Source of the DNA: Mycoplasmataceae bacterium
GTDB taxonomy: Bacteria; Bacillota_I; Bacilli_A; Mycoplasmatales; Mycoplasmoidaceae
Direction: 5' to 3'
Assembly: GCA_031290395.1 (NCBI GenBank)
Contig: JAITNN010000021.1
Span: forward strand, 124,001-188,000
DNA length: 64,000 nt
Part shown: one piece after another, positions 11,431-64,000 of the stretch
Layout of the letters: every line of letters begins with the position of its first letter
Numbering within the stretch: the first letter of the stretch is position 1
Made by a program: the position numbers and the translations under genes
Notes under the pieces: model-generated
What the model saw: only the letters and a program-made list of their open reading frames with translations
Databases searched by the model: none
What the model was told of the DNA's origin: nothing

Positions 11431-12222
11431 ATGTCACAAAATTTTAGATTCAATTATTCAACTGCTACTAATAAAGGTATCCGTCCTGTTAACGAAGATG
11501 CAAATTGGATTGGATTTAATAAAAACAACCAAGGATTAGTCGTCATTTGTGATGGTATTGGTTCTCAAGATGATAGTCAAATTGCTTCACTAATAGCGGT
11601 TGATGTGTTTAAAAAATCTTTTGAAAAACATTCTAAAATATTTAATATTGATCGTTTCTTTGCACGCAATCTTAAAATTGCATATAGTAAGATTACTAAA
11701 CAAGCCGAAGAAAAATTAAATGGTAAAAAAATTGGCACAACTTTAGTTGTAAGTTTTATCGACAAGGATACCGTTACCACTTTTAATCTTGGTGATTCGA
11801 GATTGTACCATTATTCATTTTTAGAAAATAGTTGAACGCAAATTACTAGAGATCATAACCTTTATAACTATTTTCTAGACTTGGCTGAGAAAGATAAGAA
11901 AATTGATATCAATCAACTTTGTATGCGACATAAGAGTCAATTACTTTCTTTAACTAAATGTTTGGAAAGTGGAAGTAATGCACATTATGACTATGATAAA
12001 TACGTTTTTAGTATTGCTTTAGGTGATGTATTATTTCAGGCCACTGATGGTGTTTATCATTATTTAAAACTTTCTGACATCAATGAGATAATGAAAACTA
12101 ATGCCGGAAATTTTGAAATCATCAGTACCAATTTAGTTAATTTGGCTTTAGAAAATCATAGTAACGATAACTTAACTTCTATCATCGTGGAGTGCACAAA
12201 TGCCAACTCAAAAGCAGAATAG
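11431..12222 (+). CDS. prpC: PP2C-type Ser/Thr protein phosphatase
   Basis: 263 residues, PPM family. Metal-site motifs occur in order: PVNEDANW, VVICDGIGS, GTTLVVSF, FNLGDSRLYHY, ITRDHNL, FQATDGVYHYL and NDNLTSIIV. It is the usual partner of the kinase that overlaps its 3' end by 23 bases. An ATG at 11422 lies only two bases after TATAAT (11414-11419), so the transcript must begin downstream of it; the ATG at 11431 gives an essentially leaderless mRNA and is preferred. Confidence 0.92.
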
Positions 12223-13396
12223 TACTACGGTTACTACATCACAACTTACTAAAATTGAATATCATACCAATGATTTAATTTTAAATAAATATCGTATTGT
12301 TAAACAACTTGGCACAGGAGGCATGTCTTCAATTGTGTATCAAGCTGAAGACACCACTATTAAAAACGATGAATTCATGGCTAATAAAGAAAAGATTGTT
12401 GCCATTAAAGTTGTAAACCGCGATCCTACTTGAACAGATGCAGATTGGACTAAAATTCATGATGAATGCGTTACTAGTCAACGAGCTACAAATAAGAAAA
12501 ATATTGTAAATACTTACGAAGTTTCTAAAATAAATAATGGTAACACCATTATTATTGTCATGGAATTCATTGATGGTATTTCCCTACATGAACATTTAGA
12601 AAAAATTGGCAACTTTAGTATTAAGGAGGCCGTTTACTACTTTAGACATATCCTAGAAGCAATTAAAGAATTACATAGCTTCAACGAAAAAATTATTCAC
12701 CGAGACTTAAAACCAGAAAACATTATGTTAACAAAAGATCTAATGAATATCAAAATTATTGATTTTGGTATTTCATCTGTCGTTGTGGAACTGGAACTAA
12801 CGAATGACAAAAAGGCCATTACAAGCGAAGAATCTTTATTTGGGACATTTCCGTATATTTCACCAGATTTATTGAAAATGAGGGGCAAGTCAGCCACTGA
12901 AAGACAGCAAATCATTAGTGAACAATTTGATTTTTTCTCATTAGGCGTGATCTTTTATGAAATGCTTATGGGTGAAAAACCGTTTAAAATCGCAGATGAA
13001 CATGACCAAAATGTAATTAAATTACCACTAACATACGATATGATGTGTATTAGTGATATCAATCCCACAATACCAGTGGCAATTGAAAATATTATCTTTC
13101 GTTGCCTTGCCTCTAAAGATAGCGATTTAAAATTTCGTTACCACTCAGTAAATGAAATTATGGATGATTTAAATAACTATAGTACGACTCCTGAAAAATC
13201 AACATTTAATAAATTATTAAAACCAAAAAATGAACGAACACTGCAGTTAACTAATACATTTAATGTTCAAGCACAAAAATTAAAAGAAAAGTTTTATGAG
13301 AAACCGTGGTTCTATTGGTTGCTATTTAGCATCGCAATCGTAATTGTGGTTGTCATTATTGTTTTGGTATCAGACCACATTATCAATTTTCCATAA
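12200..13396 (+). CDS. prkC: Membrane-anchored Ser/Thr protein kinase (PrkC/PknB type, no PASTA)
   Basis: 398 residues. Kinase domain about 28-330: glycine loop LGTGGMSSIVY, catalytic Lys in VAIKVV, HRDLKPENIM catalytic loop, DFGIS, and the APE-like region PYISPDLL. A single membrane segment lies close to the C-terminus (WFYWLLFSIAIVIVVVI) with only a few residues beyond it, so there are no extracellular PASTA repeats, consistent with a wall-less cell. Translationally coupled to the phosphatase. GGAG precedes the ATG. Confidence 0.93.
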
Positions 13397-29500: not shown

Positions 29501-29574
29501 GCGGGTATAGTTCAGTGGTAGAACTATAGCCTTCCAAGCTATTAATGTCGGTTCGATTCCGATTACCCGCTCCA
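29501..29574 (+). tRNA. tRNA-Gly (TCC), integration target
   Basis: Acceptor GCGGGTA with TACCCGC, anticodon loop CTTCCAA (TCC), T-arm GGTTCGATTCC, discriminator T, and CCA encoded. Its last 24 bases are the left attachment site of the integrated element. The tRNA is intact, so integration regenerated its 3' end. Confidence 0.97.
29551..29574 (+). repeat. attL: 3' end of tRNA-Gly
   Basis: 24 bases from GTTCGATTCC to CCCGCTCCA, identical to 52483-52506. Direct repeats of a tRNA 3' end flanking a tyrosine recombinase gene are the standard footprint of site-specific integration. Confidence 0.93.
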
Positions 29575-29578
29575 AAGC

Positions 29579-31396: not shown

Positions 31397-32314
31397 TTAT
31401 TCTTTTGTTAAATAATTATTATTTAAGAATAAATTATTGAATTTTTTTACCGAACCGTTCATTAAACAATTGGCAATATCGCAAGCGTCAAAGTTTCTTG
31501 GTGAGCCTAAGATGTAATGATTCATACAAGTTCTAACAGTGTTTCCTAAAACTTGAGCTATTGATGGTACATCTACATTTACTTCATGCATCAAACTTGC
31601 TTTTGTCCTACGTAAACTATGTGCACTTCATTTAAATTCAAAATGAGCTCATTTTTTGAAAACACAGAATCCTTCAACAATTAATCCTTTTTTAAGTCTA
31701 TATCGAATGTGTTGACAAAATCATTCGTATATTAACTTTTCAATATAAATTTCTCGTTTCTTGCATGTCTTTTCTGTATTAATAATGATTTCAGCATATG
31801 CACGTTTGTCAATTTGACTGGTGATAAATCGACTGGCCGTATTCTTATATCATTTGATTGAACACAATTCACCAATTCGCATACCAGAATTCAGTAATGC
31901 TTTAAAAGCAAAATAAATTTTTGTTCTAGCTATTTTAGTATTTTCTTGAATTGGTGAGTTGTGTATATTTAAATTAATTCATTCTTGAAATTTTTTATTT
32001 ACATATTCAATTTGATTAACATCTAATCGTGTTGTTGTTTTAGAAATTTCACTAGAACGATGATGAATGTACTTTGGATTAAATGCCATCCCATAAAATA
32101 AATTGTATGCAAATTTAAATACGGTACAATAGGCATTAGCTGTATTGTTGTTGCTTGTTGAATCTATTAATTTATTTGCCAATCTAACATCAATTTTAAC
32201 ATCACCAGAAAAATACTCTTTAAATCTGGTGACGACAGCATAATATTTTAAGCTTTTCTTTTTCTTGCAAAAACTTACCAATTTATTAAAAGTTATTTCT
32301 TGAATTATTTTCAT
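31397..32314 (-). CDS. int: Tyrosine recombinase (integrase of the element)
   Basis: 305 residues. N-terminal SAM-like DNA-binding region and C-terminal catalytic domain: first Arg in SGMRIGEL (about 143), HxxR in AHSLRRTKASL (about 229), and Tyr in MNHYI (about 267). The usual LGH before the Tyr reads LGN here, so one of the conserved catalytic positions differs. Integrates/excises the element at tRNA-Gly by inference from the flanking repeats. The ATG lies in a 26-base palindrome and TACAAT ends seven bases before it. Confidence 0.9.
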
Positions 32315-32393: not shown

Positions 32394-32641
32394 CCTATTG
32401 TTTTTGGTCGCAACAGTGTACTTATGTGGATTAACCTCTTCGAATATAAACCATTCATAAATTAACTGTTCGCAACGAGTTACTTCTTGTCATATCCCTG
32501 TGTTAGTTTACATTTTTGTAGAGAGGCAAGCCTTTGCTTAAATGCTCTAACACATTCGCTGATCCATTAGCATAAAGCTAACTGAGAGTTTTATTAGTAA
32601 GTCTTATTGATAGCATCGACTATTGCGACCAAAATCAATAG
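32394..32641. ncRNA. 248-base structured element closed by 20-base inverted repeat
   Basis: Ends CCTATTGTTTTTGGTCGCAA and TTGCGACCAAAATCAATAGG pair with one mismatch. Inside are GTGTTAG/CTAACAC, TTAGC-ATAAA-GCTAA, TACA-TTTT-TGTA and AAGC-CTTT-GCTT stems. No coding frame. Reads as a folded RNA (either strand) or a miniature inverted-repeat element; I see no target-site duplication, which favours RNA. Confidence 0.5.
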
Positions 32642-32680
32642 GTGTCGATTGCTATTAACAAACGACAAAACATTATAACA

Positions 32681-32703
32681 CACTGTTGTAAAAGTGATAT
32701 AAT
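32681..32703 (+). promoter_or_regulatory. Promoter with CACTGT..AGTG operator upstream of the hairpin cluster
   Basis: CACTGTTGTAAAAGTGA followed immediately by TATAAT (32698-32703). It closely resembles the palindromic promoters of the two duplicated RNAs (34115-34138, 43905-43928). Confidence 0.5.
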
Positions 32704-32735: not shown

Positions 32736-33068
32736 CCCCAACCACCACTAATTGCTCTCTATTTCGGGTGGGTAGTCACGGCTTTTTCAAAGCCGTGACT
32801 ACCCACCCTCAACCAATAATAATTATATGGAGAGAGGAAGGTGGTGGTTGGGGGTGGGGGAGCGGTCCTAAAAACAATCCAGACTTTGTTTTTAGGTCGA
32901 TTAAACTGTCATAACGGAACATATTTCGCCGTTTAATCGAGACCTTTGGTCACCGCTCCAGCTTTCGAAAACTTGAACAAAAAGTTTTCATTTTGACAAC
33001 TTTTTACCAATAAAGCACGTTCGTGGAAGTCGTCTAATCCGACTTCCCGTGCCAGCGAAGCTGCACGG
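32736..33068 (+). other. Dense hairpin cluster: candidate origin (oriT/ssDNA origin) or structured RNA
   Basis: Nested and serial stems: CCCCAACCACCAC (32736-32748) with GTGGTGGTTGGGG (32841-32853), enclosing a perfect 20-base-pair hairpin with arm GGGTGGGTAGTCACGGCTTT (32766-32808). Next GGAGCGGT/ACCGCTCC (32859-32866, 32952-32959) encloses CCTAAAAACAA/TTGTTTTTAGG and TCGATTAAAC/GTTTAATCGA. Then GAAAACTT/AAGTTTTC, GGAAGTCG/CGACTTCC and CCGTGC/GCACGG. Directly precedes a replication-relaxation-like gene. A 90-codon open frame over it is an artefact. Confidence 0.65.
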
Positions 33069-33144: not shown

Positions 33145-33918
33145 ATGAAAAAGAAAAATGATTGAAAAATAGATATGTTAAAGTTCATTGCTAAATGAGG
33201 CTTTGTTGACATGAGATTCTTACAAGTTGAGTTCCCTTCTAAGTCACAGCCCAAATTGAATAAATGATTAAAATTTTATGAAAAAAATAGTTTTTTAAAA
33301 TGCATTCATATACCAATTATTGTAAATCACACTGGACACATAACAGCTATTTATTTTTTAAATAAAGAAGCCTACGATTCATTGGATGGTTTTACCGAAT
33401 GGGAAAAAATTGATGATAGTTATATTGCTTTAGATCATAATTTAGCCTGCTTAAAAATTATTAAAGCGCTATATGTTGGTAAATACAATTATTGAACTGC
33501 TAGACAAAATCAAGAATTGATTAAAAAGAATCGATATAAAGATTTGAATAAATTACTAACCAAAAGATTCAAGGAGTCTAAATCTGTTGATTTTATCTAT
33601 GATCGTGGTCAGGGAAGGATAGCTGCTGAATGTGAATTAACTATGAAGTCAAGTTCACGCTACCTATATTCTAAAGGCAAGAAATTATCGGTGATCAAAA
33701 AAATAAATCGAGATTTTGGTAGAGGTATGTTCAAAAAATTAGAATATTGGGTTCCTATGGATTTAAAAGATCGCATGGAAAGAATCCTAGCCAACAAAAC
33801 TCGTGGTGCCGATGTTCTAACTTGCCCATATGAAATTAAAGCGATAGAACAATTAATTCCTGGTTGAAAAAGAGATGATCGATATAAATTCATTTTAAGT
33901 AAAATGAAAAATGTATAA
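33145..33918 (+). CDS. Replication-relaxation-like protein
   Basis: 257 residues. The N-terminal winged-helix pattern MLKFIAKWGFVDMRFLQVEF and KLNKWLKFYEKNSFLKC is followed by a mobile-element-type strand (GHITAIYFLNKEAYDSL) and ALDHNLACLKIIKALYVG, matching by pattern the Replic_Relax family found on conjugative elements and plasmids. I see no HUH, so it is not itself a relaxase. TGA Trp codons throughout. It lies just after the hairpin cluster and before a terminator. Family assignment is tentative. Confidence 0.55.
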
Positions 33919-34114: not shown

Positions 34115-34138
34115 TCACTGTAATAACAGTGATATAAT
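34115..34138 (+). promoter_or_regulatory. Operator-promoter of structured RNA copy 1
   Basis: TCACTGT-AATA-ACAGTGA palindrome (34115-34132) runs straight into TATAAT (34133-34138). Transcription would begin about 34144, exactly at the first base pair of the RNA stem. No good -35 box, so an activator or weak promoter is possible. Confidence 0.65.
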
Positions 34139-34144
34139 AATAAT

Positions 34145-34366
34145 GCGGATTGGTTAAGGTTTCTTACCAATTCCGTAATGCAGTCCGCAGACCGGGGGAC
34201 CGCATCATGGACTATTTATTAGCCATAGTGATTATTCTGCTCATACTTCGTATGCGTAGGTAATTGCGAGGGATTAGAGCCTAAAGCTCTAGCTCCCTAT
34301 ATGGGGAGTAATCCTCGTGTATCTCTCGGTCATAAAGACGCAAGCTTATTAGCAAGCGTCTTTTTC
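34145..34366 (+). ncRNA. Structured RNA copy 1 with internal 18-codon ORF
   Basis: Leader stem GCGGATTG/CAGTCCGC (34145-34152, 34181-34188). Closing stem GACCG/CGGTC (34190-34194, 34327-34331) encloses the peptide ORF and a three-way junction: outer CGAGG(G)ATTA/TAATCCTCG, arms AGAGC/GCTCT and CTCCC/GGGAG. Ends at a terminator GACGC...GCGTC plus T-run. Copy 2 at 43935-44158 keeps every stem, with a compensatory change in the leader stem (T-G to C-G). Confidence 0.75.
34207..34263 (+). CDS. 18-residue hydrophobic peptide, copy 1
   Basis: MDYLLAIVIILLILRMRR, one hydrophobic helix with a basic tail, preceded by GGGGGA eight bases before the ATG. Identical peptide at 43998-44054. Size and composition recall type I toxins such as Ibs or Fst, but no antisense RNA has been identified. 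A regulatory leader peptide is an alternative. Confidence 0.6.
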   Translation: MDYLLAIVIILLILRMRR

Positions 34367-34376
34367 TTTCTTATTA

Positions 34377-34403
34377 ACACACTTTTATAAAAGTGTGTAT
34401 AAT
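34377..34403 (+). promoter_or_regulatory. 22-base palindromic promoter, copy 1
   Basis: Arms ACACACTTTT and AAAAGTGTGT around AT, with the last T starting TATAAT (34398-34403). Drives the ribbon-helix-helix gene at 34450. Exact copies at 37917-37943 and 44168-44194. Confidence 0.75.
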
Positions 34404-34406
34404 ATG

Positions 34407-43904: not shown

Positions 43905-43928
43905 TCACTGTGATAACAGTGATATAAT
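43905..43928 (+). promoter_or_regulatory. Operator-promoter of structured RNA copy 2
   Basis: TCACTGT-GATA-ACAGTGA palindrome followed by TATAAT (43923-43928). Confidence 0.65.
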
Positions 43929-43934
43929 AATAAT

Positions 43935-44158
43935 GCGGACTGATTGAGGCATCTTAACCAGATCCGTAATGCAGTCCGCAGACCGGGGGACCGCATCATG
44001 GACTATTTATTAGCCATAGTGATTATTCTGCTCATACTTCGTATGCGTAGGTAATCGCGAGGGATTAGAGCCTAAAGCTCTAGCTCCCTATATGGGGAGT
44101 AATCCTCGTGTATCTCTCGGTCACAAAGACGCAAGCTTATTAGCAAGCGTCTTTTTCT
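43935..44158 (+). ncRNA. Structured RNA copy 2 with internal 18-codon ORF
   Basis: All stems of copy 1 are conserved: GCGGACTG/CAGTCCGC is fully Watson-Crick here, and GACCG/CGGTC plus the three-way junction and terminator are unchanged. The loop of the leader has diverged most, the peptide ORF not at all. Confidence 0.75.
43998..44054 (+). CDS. 18-residue hydrophobic peptide, copy 2
   Basis: MDYLLAIVIILLILRMRR, identical to copy 1, with the same GGGGGA upstream. Confidence 0.6.
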   Translation: MDYLLAIVIILLILRMRR

Positions 44159-44167
44159 TTCTTATTA

Positions 44168-44194
44168 ACACACTTTTATAAAAGTGTGTATAAT
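44168..44194 (+). promoter_or_regulatory. 22-base palindromic promoter, copy 2 (transfer operon)
   Basis: Arms ACACACTTTT/AAAAGTGTGT; TATAAT at 44189-44194 ends nine bases before the coupling-protein ATG. It is the only clear promoter for 44204-52056, so it should control transfer. Confidence 0.8.
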
Positions 44195-44203
44195 ATCACC
44201 ATA

Positions 44204-46651
44204 ATGGAACCAGTTACCAAATCTAGTAATTCAGACACATTCGATTTATTTGTTAAATGTCTTTTATATGTTGTCCTTTTCCCAAGCATCCTGGGACTAC
44301 TTTTTTCTAAATATTTAAATCGTTTGATTCAAAAAGCACAAATCAATTCAAAATACGGCATTAATGTTAGTGCTTTTAATAAATTTGCAATTTGTATTGC
44401 TATTTTACTTGAAGCTATTATATTAGCTGGCTTCAGTTATTGTATGTATGCTGTTTTTCAAACGCATATCGTTTGACAAACAATCATTTATGCTCTTGCT
44501 ATTAACATTTCAATAGTTGGTGCAGTTAGTTTTTTCATTATCTTGATCTACAATAATATTTTCATCAAAAAATATCTATCTGAATTTAAGCATCTCGACA
44601 TTGTTGAAATTAAAGATACACCAACCAAAAAACGAGATATGAAGAAATGAAACACATTCACATTCTTCATCACCAATAGAAATTTTATTAAAAAATATAT
44701 TACACAAATAGTTTCTCACAAAAATGAGAAATTGATTATTTCAGGTGACGCAGGAGTTATTTTAAATAAAGAGCGTGCCATTTGCATATCGCCATATGCT
44801 TTAAGTCGAGGCACTGTAGTTTTTGGTACAACAGGTTCAGGCAAAACAAATACATTGGAACTATTTATTGAGTACTCAATAAACCAGAAACAAAATGTAA
44901 TTTTTGTTAATGGCAAAGGTGACCAAGGATTAGTTAAAGATTTACAAATAATATGTAAAAATAATGACTATGATTTAAAAGTTTGATCACCAAATTTATT
45001 TCTTAAATCTGATAGCGAATTTATTTATAACCCTTTCAAAGATAAATCAGCAGCTTTCGTAACATCGATATTAATGGAAATTGGCCGCTATTCTACTTTG
45101 GAAGAGACTACTCCCGGAGCAATTTATTATAAAAATGATGAAATGGCTTGTATTTCGTTATTATGCAAATCATTATTATGAAAACAAAAACATAAATTAA
45201 TGGATGATAAACAAGATTATTCGATTTCTTTAGATACACTATTTCATTATTCCGATATTGAGCATTTAAGCTTATTATTGGATGGTGATTCTAAAAGAAT
45301 TCAGCTTAATGAAATTAGCCAAAACATTGAATTGTATAAACGGATTCGTAGTAAAGCTAAATTCAAAACAGATGATGATCTTAAAAATACTAGACAACAG
45401 TTGTGAGAAATAGAAAACTTAAACAAAGAAATACCAAGTGATTTTTTATCAACATCTGATAAAGTAACACAATACTTAACTAATGAAATCAATCATCTGT
45501 CAAAGGAATATCAAAAAATTAAAAGTACTCCACTAATTAGAAATGATCGTGACTTTGACAATATCTTTGAAGAGTTTGTTGATGTAAATAAAAACGATGA
45601 CAAATTAAAAGCAATGTCAAACATTAGAACTACCTTTAGAAATTTAAGAGATATAAGCGGTGATAAGCGTATTATCGATTCATCTGGTGAAACATTAGCT
45701 AACATTATTACCTCTAAAAGGCCAACAATATTGTTATTTAGTTTAGATACAAAGGCGATGAAGATCCAATCAGCGCAAGTGGCAAGAATGCTAATCGCTG
45801 ATTTAAAGCAAAACGATCGGATTATTCGTGAAAAAAATGAAAATGCTAAATTAATGTGCATCTTTGATGAATTTGGTTCATTTGCTACTGAAGACATAGT
45901 TGAGTTGCAAGAACAAGGTCGGTCATTTGGATTTGAAATTATTTATTCCATTCAAACACTTTCTAATTTAACCAAAATATCACAAGATTTTGCGACCCGA
46001 ATTATTGGTAATTGTTCTACTTATATTACTCATCGTACCAGAGACAATAAAGCGGCGGAAGAAATAGCTAATTTAATTGCGACTAATCCCGAGTTTGAAG
46101 GAACGATGCGACATAGTCAGGGTGAAGAAACCGGAGAGGAATCTGTTCGTGAAGTACAAGCATTTATTCATCATCCTAGAATGATCAAACAAATTCCAGA
46201 TCACCATGCTTTGGTTGTGACAATTCAAGAAGGTCAAGTTACCCCCATTAAGGACCCTGTCAAAATTGATTATGCAGATACCGAAAACTTTATAAGTAAT
46301 CAGAATGCTAAGCATTCAGCAATTGAAGAACTTACAGATTTTTTTAGAAGCGAAGGGCTATCAAATAAGGAAGCGGCAAAGTTAGCCTATGAAAAATCAT
46401 ATTCATTACCAATTTCACATATCAATACAATGTCAGAAAGGCCTGTTAAAGCTAAATTTTTAACAAAAGATGGTAATTCTAAAGTTCAGATCGAAATTAG
46501 TAAAATCCAGGCCATGAGCGATGTGGAGTGAGATGAATATAGAGCATCATTATTCAAAAAGTTATATCCAGATAAAGAAATGAATAATGGATGATTTAAA
46601 AATAAGCAAACTTATATTGAAAAGAAATTGTTGACCAAACCAACGTCATAA
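44204..46651 (+). CDS. traG: Conjugal coupling ATPase (TraG/TraD/VirD4 type)
   Basis: 815 residues. Two to three N-terminal membrane spans (about 10-110), Walker A VFGTTGSGKTN at about 207, and Walker B KLMCIFDEFGSF at about 550, followed by the VirD4-type IIYSIQTLSNLTKIS and a NCSTYITHRTRDNKAAEEIA motif. It connects the DNA substrate to the secretion channel and pumps DNA. Corresponds to the TraG gene (CDS5) of known mycoplasma ICEs. Many TGA Trp codons. First gene of the transfer operon. Confidence 0.93.
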
Positions 46652-46900: not shown

Positions 46901-47200
46901 ATGAACAGAATAATGTTAGCAATAAGCAATGCAATAGTAGGTGCTAGTGGTGGCACCTCAACGGATATTTCTACTATTTTATATTCAGTATTTGATTCAT
47001 TGTTACCGATTGGATTAATTTTAGTCGCAATCGGAGCTATTCGTGCTGGTATTGCTTTATCGCATGCGGAAGATGATATAGCTGGTGCAAGGCACAAGAA
47101 GCGTTTAGTGAATTGCATCATCGGTGCAGTAGTTATTAGCGTTGCGCTGGTAGCAGTGAATGTTTTGGCAGCAACCGCAAGTAGCTGGGTAGGATCTTAG
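46901..47200 (+). CDS. VirB2/TrbC-like pilin candidate
   Basis: 99 residues with a short N-terminal helix, then two hydrophobic segments (LPIGLILVAIGAIRAGIAL and CIIGAVVISVALVAVNVLA) joined by a basic loop HAEDDIAGARHKKRLV. Size, two-helix topology and position before a VirB6-like gene match conjugative pilin subunits. AGAAGGAGG ribosome binding site. No sequence signature proves it. Confidence 0.6.
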   Translation: MNRIMLAISNAIVGASGGTSTDISTILYSVFDSLLPIGLILVAIGAIRAGIALSHAEDDIAGARHKKRLVNCIIGAVVISVALVAVNVLAATASSWVGS

Positions 47201-47205
47201 CATTT

Positions 47206-48657
47206 GTGAAAACCAACAAAAACGGTTTTTATAACGAAGTTGAAGATAAATATCTAAGATGAAAGCTTCGCAAGGAAAAAATTTTCCGCATAGGTGGAAG
47301 GATTTTGTTCTGAGGTTTTCTTATTATCGTAGTTTTGTCAATTCTTATCGGAATAATAGTTGGTAGTCTTAACTATAAAAATTTTCTTCCTAAAGATGTG
47401 CAATCTTTTTTTCATTTACAAGTATTAAATGATCAAAAAGTAGGTGGTATATTGCAGGACATTATTAACGCTATTTTATCAGCAATCTTAATATTTTTAT
47501 GGCCAATCATTTGACTATTTGCAGCCCTAACATATGTAATGCAATTGATATTCAATTGAGCAGGTGGCGCTGGTTTAATTAATTTATTTTTAAAAAGCAC
47601 AGGCCTTGTAACCCAAATTTCCGTAGTAGCTGTAGCTTCCGTTGCCTTTTTAGCCATTTGTTTAGTAGTAAGAGCTGTAAAAATAGCTCACAATAAAGAA
47701 GGTGATATAGGTCACGCTATGGCTAAAGCTACACCTGGTATTGTGTTTGGAAGCATTACAGCTATTGTCTTAATTCCTGTGTTATTTTTATTCATCAACG
47801 GCGTCGTAATGACTATTCTAAGTGTCTTAATAAACAATGGTAATATGAATATGGCCACATTAGTTTGAAATGCAAGTTTCGGCGATGGTAGTCAACATCT
47901 CACGGAATTTGCTGATATTCCAACATCTGGTTTTACAGTTGTGAACTATATATGAAATAATGATTTCAATATCGGGATATGCTTGATTGGTTGAATCGGT
48001 ACGACCGTGCTAATGGGTATTTATACATGGTATGTTATTGGTTTAATTTTTAATATCATATTTTTATATGTTTTGCTTTTTCCTGCCGCAGCAAAATGAC
48101 CGAATGACGAAGGTGGTAGTGTTTATGCTGTGCGTGATGAAATAGTTGGAAATTTTGTCAATTTATTTTCCCTATATTTTATATTCACCTTATTTACCGT
48201 AATGATTGCTGGGATAAATGGTATTGAATTATCAATAAGTGGAACTGATCCTACTGGTCTTTTACCAGGTGTTATAGTCATAATTTTGTTGCTAAGTGGA
48301 GGCTTAGCCGCTTGGAAAATGCCCAAGAAAATTCCTGGTCTATTTGCCGCTAAGGGTGATACAAGTTATTACAAAAACGATTTACCAGGTTCTAAAGCAG
48401 CTCAGGAAAAAGCAAAAGATTTAAACTCAGAGAAAAATCCTTTAAGTAAAGAAAATCGTGAGGAACGCAAGGACTTTAAAGAATCACATGATGGGATGGA
48501 TAAAAAGGAGTGAGAAAAAAGCGATGGTGGTATTGCCGAAAAAGCCAAGGTTGATGCTAAGAAAGTGGCGGATTCAAAAATTGCAAGTGGAATTCGTTCA
48601 GGTAAATCACCTACTGAAGCTGTTAAATTGGGAAAACCAATTGGGAAGAAAAATTAA
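47206..48657 (+). CDS. Polytopic VirB6/TrbL-like transfer protein
   Basis: 483 residues from a GTG start (no ATG fits; AGGAT upstream). A basic N-terminus, about seven membrane segments, then a charged cytoplasmic C-terminus rich in Lys/Glu/Asp from about residue 385 onward. Location between pilin-like and VirB4 genes and this topology fit the inner-membrane channel subunit. TGA Trp codons are numerous. Confidence 0.65.
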
Positions 48658-48659
48658 TT

Positions 48660-51449
48660 ATGTCAGAGAAGAGTAAACGAGAAATTTTAATCACAAAACC
48701 TACCAAATATATTCGTGATATTTTTGCACATATGTTTGGAGGAATTGGTGGTATGGAACTAATTATTTTTTCCATTATTTTTGTAATCACTGCTGGACTA
48801 GTAGTATTAATTTTTTTTCTGACTAAAGGTGAATCTATCTATTTGCAAATTGGGTTATGCGCTGGTGTATTAATTTTAGGAATATTAATTTTGTTCTTTT
48901 TAATTCGAACAAAAGCAAATAAAGATAAAGAATGAAAATATTTGCACGATAAATATCGTTATGAATTTGATAATAATAAAAAAGAGTTAGACTCACCAGA
49001 TATATTTAATCTATTCAACATTGAATGTATCCATGATAATGGTGATATTGAATTCAATGTAAAATCCCCTAATAAAGGCGGATTAAAATCCGTTAATGAC
49101 AACCATTCTTTTAATAAAGATAATATGCACGGAGTATTATTTAAGCTATCGGGCGTCAATGTTGGTTTATTAACAAACGATGAGAGCAATCGCGTTATTG
49201 ATGCGATGGCTAATCCGTGACTAAAAATTGACTTGAATCATAAAATTATCATAGTTGATGAGGAAATCAATATTAAACCTATGAATGACTATTTGTATGG
49301 ATTAAAAGAGAAATACAAGAATGTTACAAACATTAAGATCGACGGCCCTACAGATGCAGATATTAAATTAAATCAAATTAATAACTACATAAATATTAAT
49401 GATGAAATTAAACAAAAGAATATTGTTAATAAAGGCATCTATATATTATTTTTTTATTATAAAGAATCAGACTTAGATAATGCTTGTGCTGAGATTGAGG
49501 GTGTTGGTAATTCAACCAAAACGTCTTTAACTCGAGTAGAAAATAAACAAACTGTGTGTAATATTTTAAATACTCTGTACGTGCCACTGTCAGACAAATG
49601 ATTTAATGGCAAATCTAAAATAGGCATTAACCAAAATTTAGGAAAAATAAAAATTTTTAAAGATTACATTCAACTAGGCAAAAAGCAATTTACAAAATTG
49701 ATTGAAATTAAGCAATGTCCTACATTAGTTACAGCAGGCTGATTGAGAAAAATTTCTACATATCGTAATATTCAAACTTTTATAACATTTGAAAAAACAG
49801 ATGCCGAAGTAATAAGACAAAATTTAGAGCGTTCTAAAAGAAAAATTAAATTGAACTGAGAATTTGTAAAATCTGAAGGCGAAGCGTTTAATCAAAAAGA
49901 ATATGTAGATGTTATGACAAATCTCATCCATGATTACGCCAAAGGTTATTCGCGCCCATGATATGTAAATATTACTTTTATCATAACGGCTTCGAGCAAA
50001 GATGAATTACTCGATCTAACTAAATCTTTTACTAAGGAATTAAAATCTGTCGATCGATTTCAATTTAATGAATTAAATTATTTTCAACACGATGCGTTAA
50101 TGCTAATGTGGTCGTTCCAGTACACAAAAAAGAAAAAATTGATGACTTATATGGAGTTAAGCAATGATGCTGTTGGAGCGATGTATCCGTTCGTTTCTAA
50201 TGCTTTAAAAGATACACAAGGCGTCCAATTAGGGTATGAAACATACTCTGGTGATCCATTTTGGTTCGATCTCAAGATGAAAGAAGGAAAACTACGTAAT
50301 TCTAACGTTTGTTTAGTTTGTGCAAAAACTGGTGGTGGTAAAACATATACCGTTAATAAAATATGCAATTGGTTTAAGAATACTTCGTTTAATAAAAATA
50401 TGCGCCAATATATAGTCGACCCATTAGGAGACTACTATGGATTGTTTGTAAATCATTACAACGTTTCTAAAATTGATATGACCGATGCAAGCAAGGGACT
50501 AATTAACCCATTGCAGATTTTAGATGAAGAAAAAGATCGAACAACACATGCGAACGAATTCATCGTCTGATTATCAATGATTGGACAAAAGAAATTTAGT
50601 GCTAAAATTGAAAAATTACTTATCGAAAACATCCTAGAACTCTACGAAAAATTTCATATTAGTGATGACTTCAATGAAATAAAAGATGATATTGGGGAAA
50701 CACATCATATTTACAAGTATAGTAAACTAGACAACAAAAAATGACCCACTACTGACGATTTATATGAATATCTATTGAAGAAGTTTAAAAATGTTAAATC
50801 TGAATCTCAAGAAGAGGAAATGATCCACATTGTTTGGAAAGTATCAGAACAAGGCAACTATGGTAGAACGTGGAATGGTTACACTACATTGAATGTGGAG
50901 CATGCAGATATCGTAATACTTGATACGCATAGCCTAGATCCTGATCGTGATCCAATATTATTTAAATGTCAAATGTATCTAATTTCAAGTTTTTTGAGAG
51001 GCGAAGCTTTGAAAAATCGTGATCGAAATTTAGGTATTACTAATGTAGATGATTTAAGATGAATAACCATTGTTGTGGACGAAGCGCATCGATGAGTAAA
51101 GAATAATCCGATTGCTCTTAAAACTCTTGAATTGTTAGCCCGCGAGATTCGACATCACAAAGGTGTTTTAATTTTATCTACGCAAAACATAGCCGATTTT
51201 AAAGGGGAACCAGAAGCCATTTTAAAACAAGCTCTTTATCAAATTGTTCTTAACATGACTCCTGCTGATGTTACGAGTTATGATGAATTATTAAAAGAAG
51301 CTGGTGGTCTAACTCAAAACGAAAAGGATTACATTATAAACGCCAGTATCGGTGAGGCTTTAATTTCTATTGGTCCAAAATATCGATGCTATGTGAAAAT
51401 TAAAGCTAATCAAATAGAAGAATATATGTGAATAAATGGAGCTAAATAA
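48660..51449 (+). CDS. traE: Conjugal transfer ATPase (TraE/VirB4 type)
   Basis: 929 residues. Two N-terminal membrane spans (about 35-90), then a long cytoplasmic domain with Walker A VCAKTGGGKTYTVNK at about 555, VDPLGDYYGLF, Walker B ITIVVDEAHRWV at about 803, and LILSTQNIADF, typical of VirB4. It powers pilus assembly and substrate transfer. Counterpart of TraE (CDS17) in known mycoplasma ICEs. Starts two bases after the previous stop; its stop overlaps the next start. Confidence 0.92.
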
Positions 51450-52482: not shown

Positions 52483-52506
52483 GTTCGATTCCGATTACCC
52501 GCTCCA
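52483..52506 (+). repeat. attR
   Basis: 24-base exact copy of the tRNA-Gly 3' end (29551-29574), marking the right boundary of the element. Confidence 0.93.
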
Positions 52507-52556
52507 ATTACCCACTGAATCAATTGGGTGCCATATTTAATAACGTTAGGAGATAT

Positions 52557-57529: not shown

Positions 57530-58228
57530 CTATTTCTGACGAATTTGGTTAGTTTTATTGAATTCTTCAACTTGTGTCACGATATTAGTTTTACGTAAAG
57601 TTTTACGATTATTGAACATACCACTACTTGCAAAGATCTTGGCAATTTCAGCTGCTAACTTTTCGGGGGATTGACTTAAACGTTTGAACTCATCTAAGTG
57701 AACGACTGTAATATTACCATTAGTTTCACTAACAACAAAGGCAAAACAATCATATTTTTCACAAATACCAAAAGCAGCACGATGACGGGCACCGTATTCC
57801 ACATTGACAATTTTCTTAGTCATTGGTAAATAACTAGATAGGGAGGCAATCCTTCAATTACGAAGAATCATGGCGCCATCATGTAAAGCTGACTTATGGT
57901 TATAGAAAATACTTGTGACAAATTCTGGAAAGAAAGCTGAATCAACTTTATTACCAATGTTGATATATGAAGTTAAACTATCTTTATTCTCAATCACAAT
58001 TAGTGCACCAATTTTGTCAACAGACAATTTGATCAAAGTACTAGAGAGGTTATTAAAAAAATTTAATAAAAACTTCACATCATCATTTTGACTCTTTTTT
58101 GTAAAACGAAGCCGTGAAAAAAATGTTTTAATTTCCGAACCATAGATAGCAAAAAGGATTTGGATGATAATTAAAGCAACCAATAATAAAATGATGATGA
58201 TGGATAAAGTAATGACTGACTCTAGCAT
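57530..58228 (-). CDS. cdaA: Diadenylate cyclase (c-di-AMP synthase, single-span CdaA/CdaM type)
   Basis: 232 residues. One N-terminal membrane helix (ITLSIIIILLLVALIIIQIL) where CdaA of Bacillus has three; this matches CdaM of M. pneumoniae. DAC domain: LHDGAMILR (DGA) and EYGARHRAAFGI (RHR), both intact, and a SETNG loop. Makes c-di-AMP, the K+ homeostasis messenger; the KtrA/KtrB genes at 7332-9774 are the plausible targets. 29 bases downstream of the GGDEF/EAL-like gene. Confidence 0.93.
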
Positions 58229-62463: not shown

Positions 62464-64000
62464 ATGAATGATCAGTTAATAATTAAAGGAGCAAGAGAAA
62501 ATAATCTTAAGAATATCGATGTCGAGATTCCTAAGAATAAGTTAGTCGTGATTACTGGACTATCTGGTAGTGGTAAATCTTCTTTGGCCTTTGATACTAT
62601 TTATGCTGAAGGCCAAAGAAGATATTTGGAATCATTATCTTCATATGCCAGACAATTTTTAGGTGGTAATGAAAAACCAGATGTTGACGTGATTGAAGGC
62701 CTTTCGCCATCAATTAGCATTGATCAAAAATCAACATCGCATAATCCTCGTTCAACTGTTGGTACCGTTACTGAAATATATGATTATTTAAGAGTCCTAT
62801 TTGCCCGTATCGGTTCACCTTATTGCCCCAATGGCCATGGTTTAATTGAAACTTTAACCACCAAACAAATCTTAGGAAAAATTACCGAAACCTTTAAAGA
62901 TGGTGATCATCTCCAAATCTTATCTCCTTTGGTTTACAAACAAAAGGGAACATTTAAAACTGAACTAGACAAATTGAAAACCGAAGGTTTTCTACGCATT
63001 CGTGTTGATGATAATAATTACTCGCTGGATGAGAAAATTGAAATTGAAAAAAATAAATTTCACAACATCGATATCATCATTGATCGGATCATTGCACATA
63101 ACGATAGTGAAACACGTTCCAGAATTAATGATGCATTAGAAACTGCTTTAAAATATGGCAATGGTAAGGTTGTTATTATTGATGAAGATAAAGAAGGCGT
63201 TTATTCACAATCACATTCTTGTAAGATTTGTGGATTTACAATCCCTGAAATGGAACCACGTTTATTTTCGTTCAATAACCCCGTGGGAGCTTGCCCTCAT
63301 TGCAAGGGTTTAGGTTTTACATATGAACCAGATGAAAATAAAATGATTCCAGATAAATCTTTGTCAATCAATATGGGTGGAATTGATTATTTTAAAAACA
63401 CTGTGAATACAACATCCATTGATTGACAAAGATTTAATATCATGCTCGAACACTACAAGATTGATAAAAATAAACCACTAGGCAAACTTACTAAAAAAGA
63501 AATTGATTTAATGATGTATGGTTCTGATGAACCACTAAATATTGAGCTACGTTCAAGTGGTGGAAATAGTTATAGCAAATATGACTATGTTGAAGGTATT
63601 ATGGAGTTGGTAAGGCGCCGTCATTTAGAAACATCTTCAGAAATGGCACGACAATATTATTCAAAATATATGTCTGAAAAAACATGCGAAGCATGTCATG
63701 GTAAGAAATTATCACCGGCTGCTTTATCAGTTAAAATTGGTGGTAAAGACATTATTGAAGTAACTGAACTATCTATTCGTGAATGCATCGACTTCTTGTT
63801 AAAGTTAGAATTGAGCGAGCAACAACAATTGATTGCAAAGCTTGCCTTAAAAGAAATTGTAGATCGTTTAACATTCCTAGATAATGTCGGACTTAATTAC
63901 TTAACTTTATCGAGAAGTGCGGCTACGTTAAGTGGTGGGGAAGCACAACGAATTAGACTAGCAACTCAAATTGGGTCACATTTAACTGGTGTGCTATATG
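62464..64000 (+). CDS. uvrA: Excinuclease ABC subunit A, N-terminal part (runs off window end)
   Basis: At least 512 residues present. ATPase I Walker [16 protein letters not shown], the UvrA signature [13 protein letters not shown], zinc sites CKIC...CPHC (about 254-285) and [11 protein letters not shown] (about 410-420), and the ABC signature [13 protein letters not shown] of domain I. UvrA is the damage-sensing ATPase of nucleotide-excision repair. The second half is outside the window. Confidence 0.97.

Follow-up and report, generated by a model that had tools for sequence, protein, structure and literature searches.

The DNA that we analyzed (64,000 nucleotides, the window) comes from a Mollicute that uses genetic code 4, with TGA read as tryptophan, and carries a Mollicutes integrative conjugative element (ICE) of ~23 kb. 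An exact 25-bp direct repeat that duplicates the 3′ end of tRNA-Gly(TCC) bounds the ICE; the left copy (29551–29575, + strand) overlaps the end of the tRNA-Gly gene at 29501–29574, and the right copy is found at 52483–52507 (+ strand). Between these attachment repeats lie genes for a tyrosine integrase, translated with code 4 (31397–32314, – strand; PF00589, E 6.7e-8, over the cut-off), a putative MOBC-like relaxase (33145–33918, + strand), a VirD4/TraG-type coupling protein (44186–46651, + strand; PF10412, E 3.1e-17), a pilin-like conjugal transfer protein of the Mbov_0395 family (46901–47200, + strand; NF045849, E 1e-5, under the cut-off), a VirB6-like membrane protein of the Mbov_0396 family (47206–48657, + strand; NF045889, E 3.2e-16, under the cut-off), and a VirB4-type ATPase of the Mbov_0397 family of mycoplasma ICEs (48660–51449, + strand; NF045975, E 2.2e-108, under the cut-off). 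The subject of this study is a hairpin-dense block at 32736–33068, located between the integrase and relaxase-like genes.

The VirB4, VirB6-like, and pilin-like genes are related to those of mycoplasma ICEs, such as ICEA of M. agalactiae and ICEB. ICEA integrates by means of a DDE transposase with no preferred site, whereas the element described here has a tyrosine integrase, occupies a tRNA-Gly gene, and encodes a MOBC-like relaxase. By comparison with MICE, transfer genes of that family are present, all scoring under the curated cut-offs, but DDE transposase-driven integration is not. The oriT of ICEA was treated as unidentified in a 2018 study of M. agalactiae, in which a candidate hairpin with 8-bp arms was mentioned (PMC6030558).

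Folded as RNA, positions 32736–33068 had a minimum free energy of –151.1 kcal/mol, compared with –85.6 ± 5.6 kcal/mol for dinucleotide shuffles (z –11.7), and folding with DNA parameters gave z scores of –14.5 for the + strand and –11.9 for the – strand. Local GC content is 0.41–0.44 in the block versus ~0.30 in its surroundings. A preliminary description of this DNA, made from the letters alone, had called such structure exceptional for an AT-rich genome and had described a perfect 20-bp hairpin nested in an outer stem, a multibranch structure, and further stems; our analysis bears out each of these points. H1 (32736–32853, + strand), the proposed oriT core, has an outer stem (32736–32759/32830–32853) composed of 14 bp, CCCCAACCACCACT, and a 6-bp GCTCTC segment, and this stem encloses the longest perfect stem of the window, an inner stem of 20 bp (GGGTGGGTAGTCACGGCTTT/AAAGCCGTGACTACCCACCC, 32766–32785/32789–32808) with a 3-nt loop. 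On the 3′ side, residues 32809–32829 (+ strand), which start with TCAACC, form an unpaired or weakly paired bulge. H2 (32858–32959, + strand) is a closed structure with three hairpin branches, and H3–H5 (32967–33067, + strand) are additional predicted stems at 32967–32989, 33015–33052, and ~33048–33067, between H2 and the relaxase-like gene. The entire block is single-copy in its own genome, lies where the local cumulative GC skew has a trough, and is separated by ~77 bp from the ATG at 33145, the first in frame for the relaxase-like gene. Elsewhere in the window, the stretch between the integrase gene and the block (32395–32640) has an imperfect inverted repeat, ATTGTTTTTGGTCGC ... GCGACCAAAATCAAT, at its edges and a weak folding signal, and a 19-bp perfect inverted repeat, TAAATCTTTGTCAATCAAT, at 63354–63436 within a uvrA-like coding sequence is probably a coincidence of codons.

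The gene directly after the block, which had been described as being of replication/relaxation type, is indeed predicted from profiles, alignment, and an AF2 model to encode a divergent MOBC-like (PD-(D/E)XK-type) putative relaxase with an N-terminal winged helix. Searched alone, the window protein had no meaningful Pfam match, no PF13814 match, and a weak match to NF041423 (MobC, replication-relaxation) of 14.9 bits versus a cut-off of 200. Relatives from two other genomes, G006 and G035, match NF041423 alone, weakly, and the MobC-like proteins of Spiroplasma and other Mollicutes also score below 200 bits. Because the score falls under the curated cut-off, we refer to the protein as MOBC-like and not as a certified member of the family. 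When the three ICE proteins were aligned with eight other Mollicutes MobC-like proteins, all 11 proteins matched NF041423, and the residues H103, D154, E167-x-E169, T171, and K173 were invariant, consistent with a PD-(D/E)XK-type motif with a conserved histidine. Profile–profile comparison gave an E value of 8.5e-6 and a probability of 83%. AF2 modeling from the 11-sequence alignment gave a pLDDT of 77 and a pTM of 0.78, as compared with a pLDDT of 35 from the three-sequence alignment, and residues ~1–90 of the model resemble the winged helices of MarR/HxlR proteins (Z 8–9 in a structure search). Among the Foldseek and VIA-align matches listed for the model, almost all were winged helices, and matches to restriction nucleases were weak, so the nuclease character of the C-terminal part is deduced from the motif and not from structure. 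MOBC relaxases are related to PD-(D/E)XK nucleases, and TraX of pAD1 has a winged helix (PMC12857230); the winged helix and nuclease-like motif of the window protein fit the MOBC layout given in this review.

The hairpin and the relaxase-like gene occupy an identical set of genomes. The gene was found in 3 of 320 genomes of the order, namely this one (G000), G006, and G035, and an independent search for the pattern GGTGGGTAGTCA-N10-40-TGACTACCCACC identified only these same three, with the hairpin directly upstream of the gene in each case. The preliminary description had held that absence of the block from mobile relatives would refute its reading; the block is present in both G006 and G035. 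In this window and in G006 the integrase gene flanks the block divergently on the other side, but in G035 the gene ahead of the block encodes VirB4, and thus the hairpin stays with the relaxase gene. All three genomes of this close-relative set are draft bins, and the G006 and G035 records comprise one Mycoplasmataceae MAG and one uncultured Mycoplasmatota MAG. No relatives of the relaxase were found in viral contigs or genome contigs when either the single protein or the three-protein alignment served as the query, and the pattern search found no copy of the hairpin in viral contigs. In plasmids, the G035 relaxase protein had no relative, and in the plasmid collection the block DNA had no match. 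In the G006 relative (L009, 12240–14694), the integrase end lies near tRNA-Ser(GCT) and beside a homolog of the window gene at 57530–58228; at the corresponding tRNA-Ser site in this genome there is no ICE. Related ICEs perhaps use different tRNA targets.

A three-way alignment of the blocks folds into one nested hairpin, in which 11 of 39 pairs show double compensatory changes. The inner stem (32766–32808, + strand), recovered by the pattern search, is near-identical in the three ICEs, with a core consisting of GGGTGGGTAGTCA, then C or G, then GG; one of the compensatory changes, from C-G to G-C, falls within this core, and all 61 of the 61 pairs in the three inner stems are Watson-Crick. The outer arms have diverged in sequence with pairing kept, and the bulged strand after the inner stem has invariant columns, YCWACC followed by ATA, in 3/3 ICEs. 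H2 recurs in form and not in sequence, with three hairpins in G006 and a reduced version in G035. Covariation among three sequences, taken alone, provides modest statistical support for the structure. As expected for an oriT, the block is non-coding, rich in inverted repeats, adjacent to a relaxase-like gene, and conserved together with it.

Additional MobC-like loci from other genera, with nested or long perfect hairpins upstream, were collected by an NF041423 search of the order. At 12 of 13 Mollicutes mobC loci a perfect stem of at least 16 bp was present within 600 bp upstream, and in 9 of these the GC content was at least 0.4; a GC-rich stem of at least 14 bp occurred in 1 of 167 control windows, with the two blocks set aside. 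One locus, L028, has a MobC-like gene without a hairpin and a transposase-like gene upstream. Loci L026, with a regulator-like ORF, and L016–L019, with weak N-terminal matches only, were excluded from the MobC count. We also dropped as evidence the likeness of a stem from the g5 genus, TGACCCCACCC, to the window stem, as the motif has the opposite orientation within the hairpin.

The Spiroplasma hairpins in this set correspond to a structure already on record: a 2008 paper described an inverted repeat region (IRR, IR1–IR6) before pF in plasmids pSci1–4 of S. citri and pSKU146 of S. kunkelii as a possible oriT, and recognized no relaxase on the pSci plasmids (PMC2386487). In our search, the gene that follows the IRR on pSci1 proved to be MobC-like (E 1.1e-7), though annotated as a BlaI/MecI regulator. 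Like the block, the Spiroplasma IRRs combine nested hairpins with abutting ones immediately ahead of a MobC-like gene, show compensatory changes (13 pairs with double changes and few G-U intermediates among 13 IRRs), precede regions of positive skew, and occur on elements with VirB4/VirD4 homologs. Differences are also evident. The IRRs are on plasmids, and have a conserved CAACG in the inner loop and a small hairpin in the 5′ bulge, whereas the ICE block shows conservation of the inner stem itself and has a longer conserved bulge, on the 3′ side. An IRR query of the plasmid collection matched 43 Spiroplasma records, none of which was matched by the window block. The sequence of the inner stem is not common to the Spiroplasma IRRs, and therefore it is only plan and gene neighborhood that link the two sets. 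On Spiroplasma plasmids, for example NC_007387.1 at 12172–12762 (L042, 2777–3367), MobC-like genes are listed under hypothetical proteins or under regulators of the BlaI/MecI/CopY type, and the PLSDB type is non-mobilizable.

Just upstream of the block, where the preliminary description had placed a promoter, we find a promoter-like site, ATAACA-17-TATAAT (32675–32703, + strand), which matches at 10 of 12 positions, has TG before the second hexamer, and overlaps an operator-like repeat, CACTGTTGTAAAAGTGATATAAT / CACTGTTGTAAAAGTG, at 32681–32703. This site reads into the block and is one of six promoter-like sites in the ICE, at 32681, 34116, 34380, 37920, 43906, and 44171 on the + strand, that have two operator-like palindromes in common, which suggests an element-specific regulon. 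Near-identical units of ~290 bp occur in the ICE at 34116–34404 and 43906–44195; each contains, in order, a promoter-like site with a palindromic operator, a structured segment that holds a very small hydrophobic ORF, MDYLLAIVIILLILRMRR, a terminator-like hairpin, and a second such site. These duplicated units are possibly type I toxin-like or leader regulatory units.

Taken as sequence evidence, these results make the block a candidate oriT for a MOBC-like system on the ICE, a role that we consider quite likely because its neighbor is MOBC-like, hairpin and gene are found in the same three of 320 genomes, similar hairpins precede other mobC loci, and the ICE is conjugative. They support the origin-of-transfer reading of the preliminary description, which had coupled it with a single-strand origin; for this block, the two are not separable.

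The same description offered a long structured RNA as its alternative. Transcription from the site at 32681 could produce a trans-acting small RNA or a 5′ leader of the relaxase mRNA, with a role in controlling relaxase expression or in mobilization, and two sisters of this site do precede small structured, terminator-ended units. A precedent is found in SGI1, whose sgm-sRNA is required for mobilization, and SGI1 also resembles the present system in having an inverted-repeat-rich oriT near mobilization genes and transcription across oriT, although its mobilization proteins are tyrosine recombinases, not MOBC, and the role of its RNA has been demonstrated by experiment, whereas here it is a rival reading (PMC9299015). 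By contrast, in neither G006 nor G035 was an equivalent promoter located next to the block, the + strand of the block has no T-tract terminator, and no Rfam family matched the block at gathering score; its weak matches, to IS102 RNA and to hairpins of miRNA type, score far under gathering. Moreover, the two strands of the block fold equally well, and G-U pairs make up 3–10% of the total versus 11–15% in shuffles; together with the purely Watson-Crick inner stems, these properties favor a hairpin or cruciform in DNA. Compensation in the Spiroplasma IRRs likewise consists mostly of double changes and not of G-U pairs. Thus, the upstream promoter-like site is real, but a structured RNA accounts for the block less well than an oriT does, and we judge it unlikely.

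Hairpin clusters are typical of rolling-circle replication origins, and the block might contain the double-strand and single-strand origins of the excised circle, with transfer starting elsewhere. Its position in a trough of cumulative GC skew and the positive skew after the Spiroplasma IRRs are in line with this idea, but skew also tracks gene orientation, no separate Rep gene was recognized near the block, and no candidate relaxase or initiator was found other than the adjacent gene. Such an origin with no part in initiating transfer seems rather improbable, and because oriT doubles as a replication origin in some ICEs, it may not be a distinct explanation. Hairpins can also occur in ordinary intergenic regions of Mollicutes, as terminators or decayed inverted-repeat elements that play no role in transfer. 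For a single-copy block with no T-tract after H1, conserved with compensatory changes in three diverged ICEs and strictly linked to the relaxase gene, we regard this origin as highly implausible, chiefly because of the co-occurrence and compensation.

If the block is an oriT, it would probably be processed as a cruciform or single-stranded hairpin, and we infer binding, nicking, the position of nic, strand polarity, and the roles of H2–H5 as follows. The tyrosine integrase would first excise the ICE. The MOBC-like protein would then bind H1 through its winged helix, with the conserved inner stem and conserved bulged strand serving as the site of recognition and processing. Its PD-(D/E)XK-like domain would nick one strand of H1, perhaps within or beside the bulged strand at 32809–32829, which is a candidate nic or recognition strand, and VirD4 and VirB4 would export the nicked strand. 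In the recipient, the hairpins would fold again, and H2–H5, as single-strand structures, might help to restart synthesis. The structured flank of H2–H5 probably aids melting or cruciform extrusion, or may be the start site for the complementary strand after transfer. CloDF13 (MobC) and pAD1 (TraX) are MOBC systems, and the MOBC-like protein here appears to share a PD-(D/E)XK-like motif with them and a winged helix with TraX; the sequence GGGTGGGTAGTC may resemble the CloDF13 nic region. In pAD1, TraX binds five direct repeats ~70–120 bp from nic, and a nested-hairpin plan is not described there (PMC12857230).

The oriT of a MOBC system is already known as a kind of element. In a partial literature search, we found no prior description of a nested hairpin with a conserved core on a tyrosine-integrase ICE of Mollicutes, or of IRRs joined with MobC-like genes across the class, and we make no first-report claim for either. 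More tentatively, MOBC-type relaxases of Mollicutes might recognize DNA shape, with an extruded cruciform or a single-strand nested hairpin as the substrate of a PD-(D/E)XK nicking enzyme, in a class-wide plan for oriT. We regard this generalization as possible but doubtful; if true, it would explain the IRRs of Spiroplasma plasmids and the ICE block alike. The presence of a relaxase-like gene under other names may explain why the matching Spiroplasma plasmids are typed as non-mobilizable in PLSDB. A hairpin cluster and a relaxase-like gene are now paired across several genera of Mollicutes, which makes the start of transfer in these wall-less bacteria accessible to testing with a single protein and a clone only a few hundred base pairs long.
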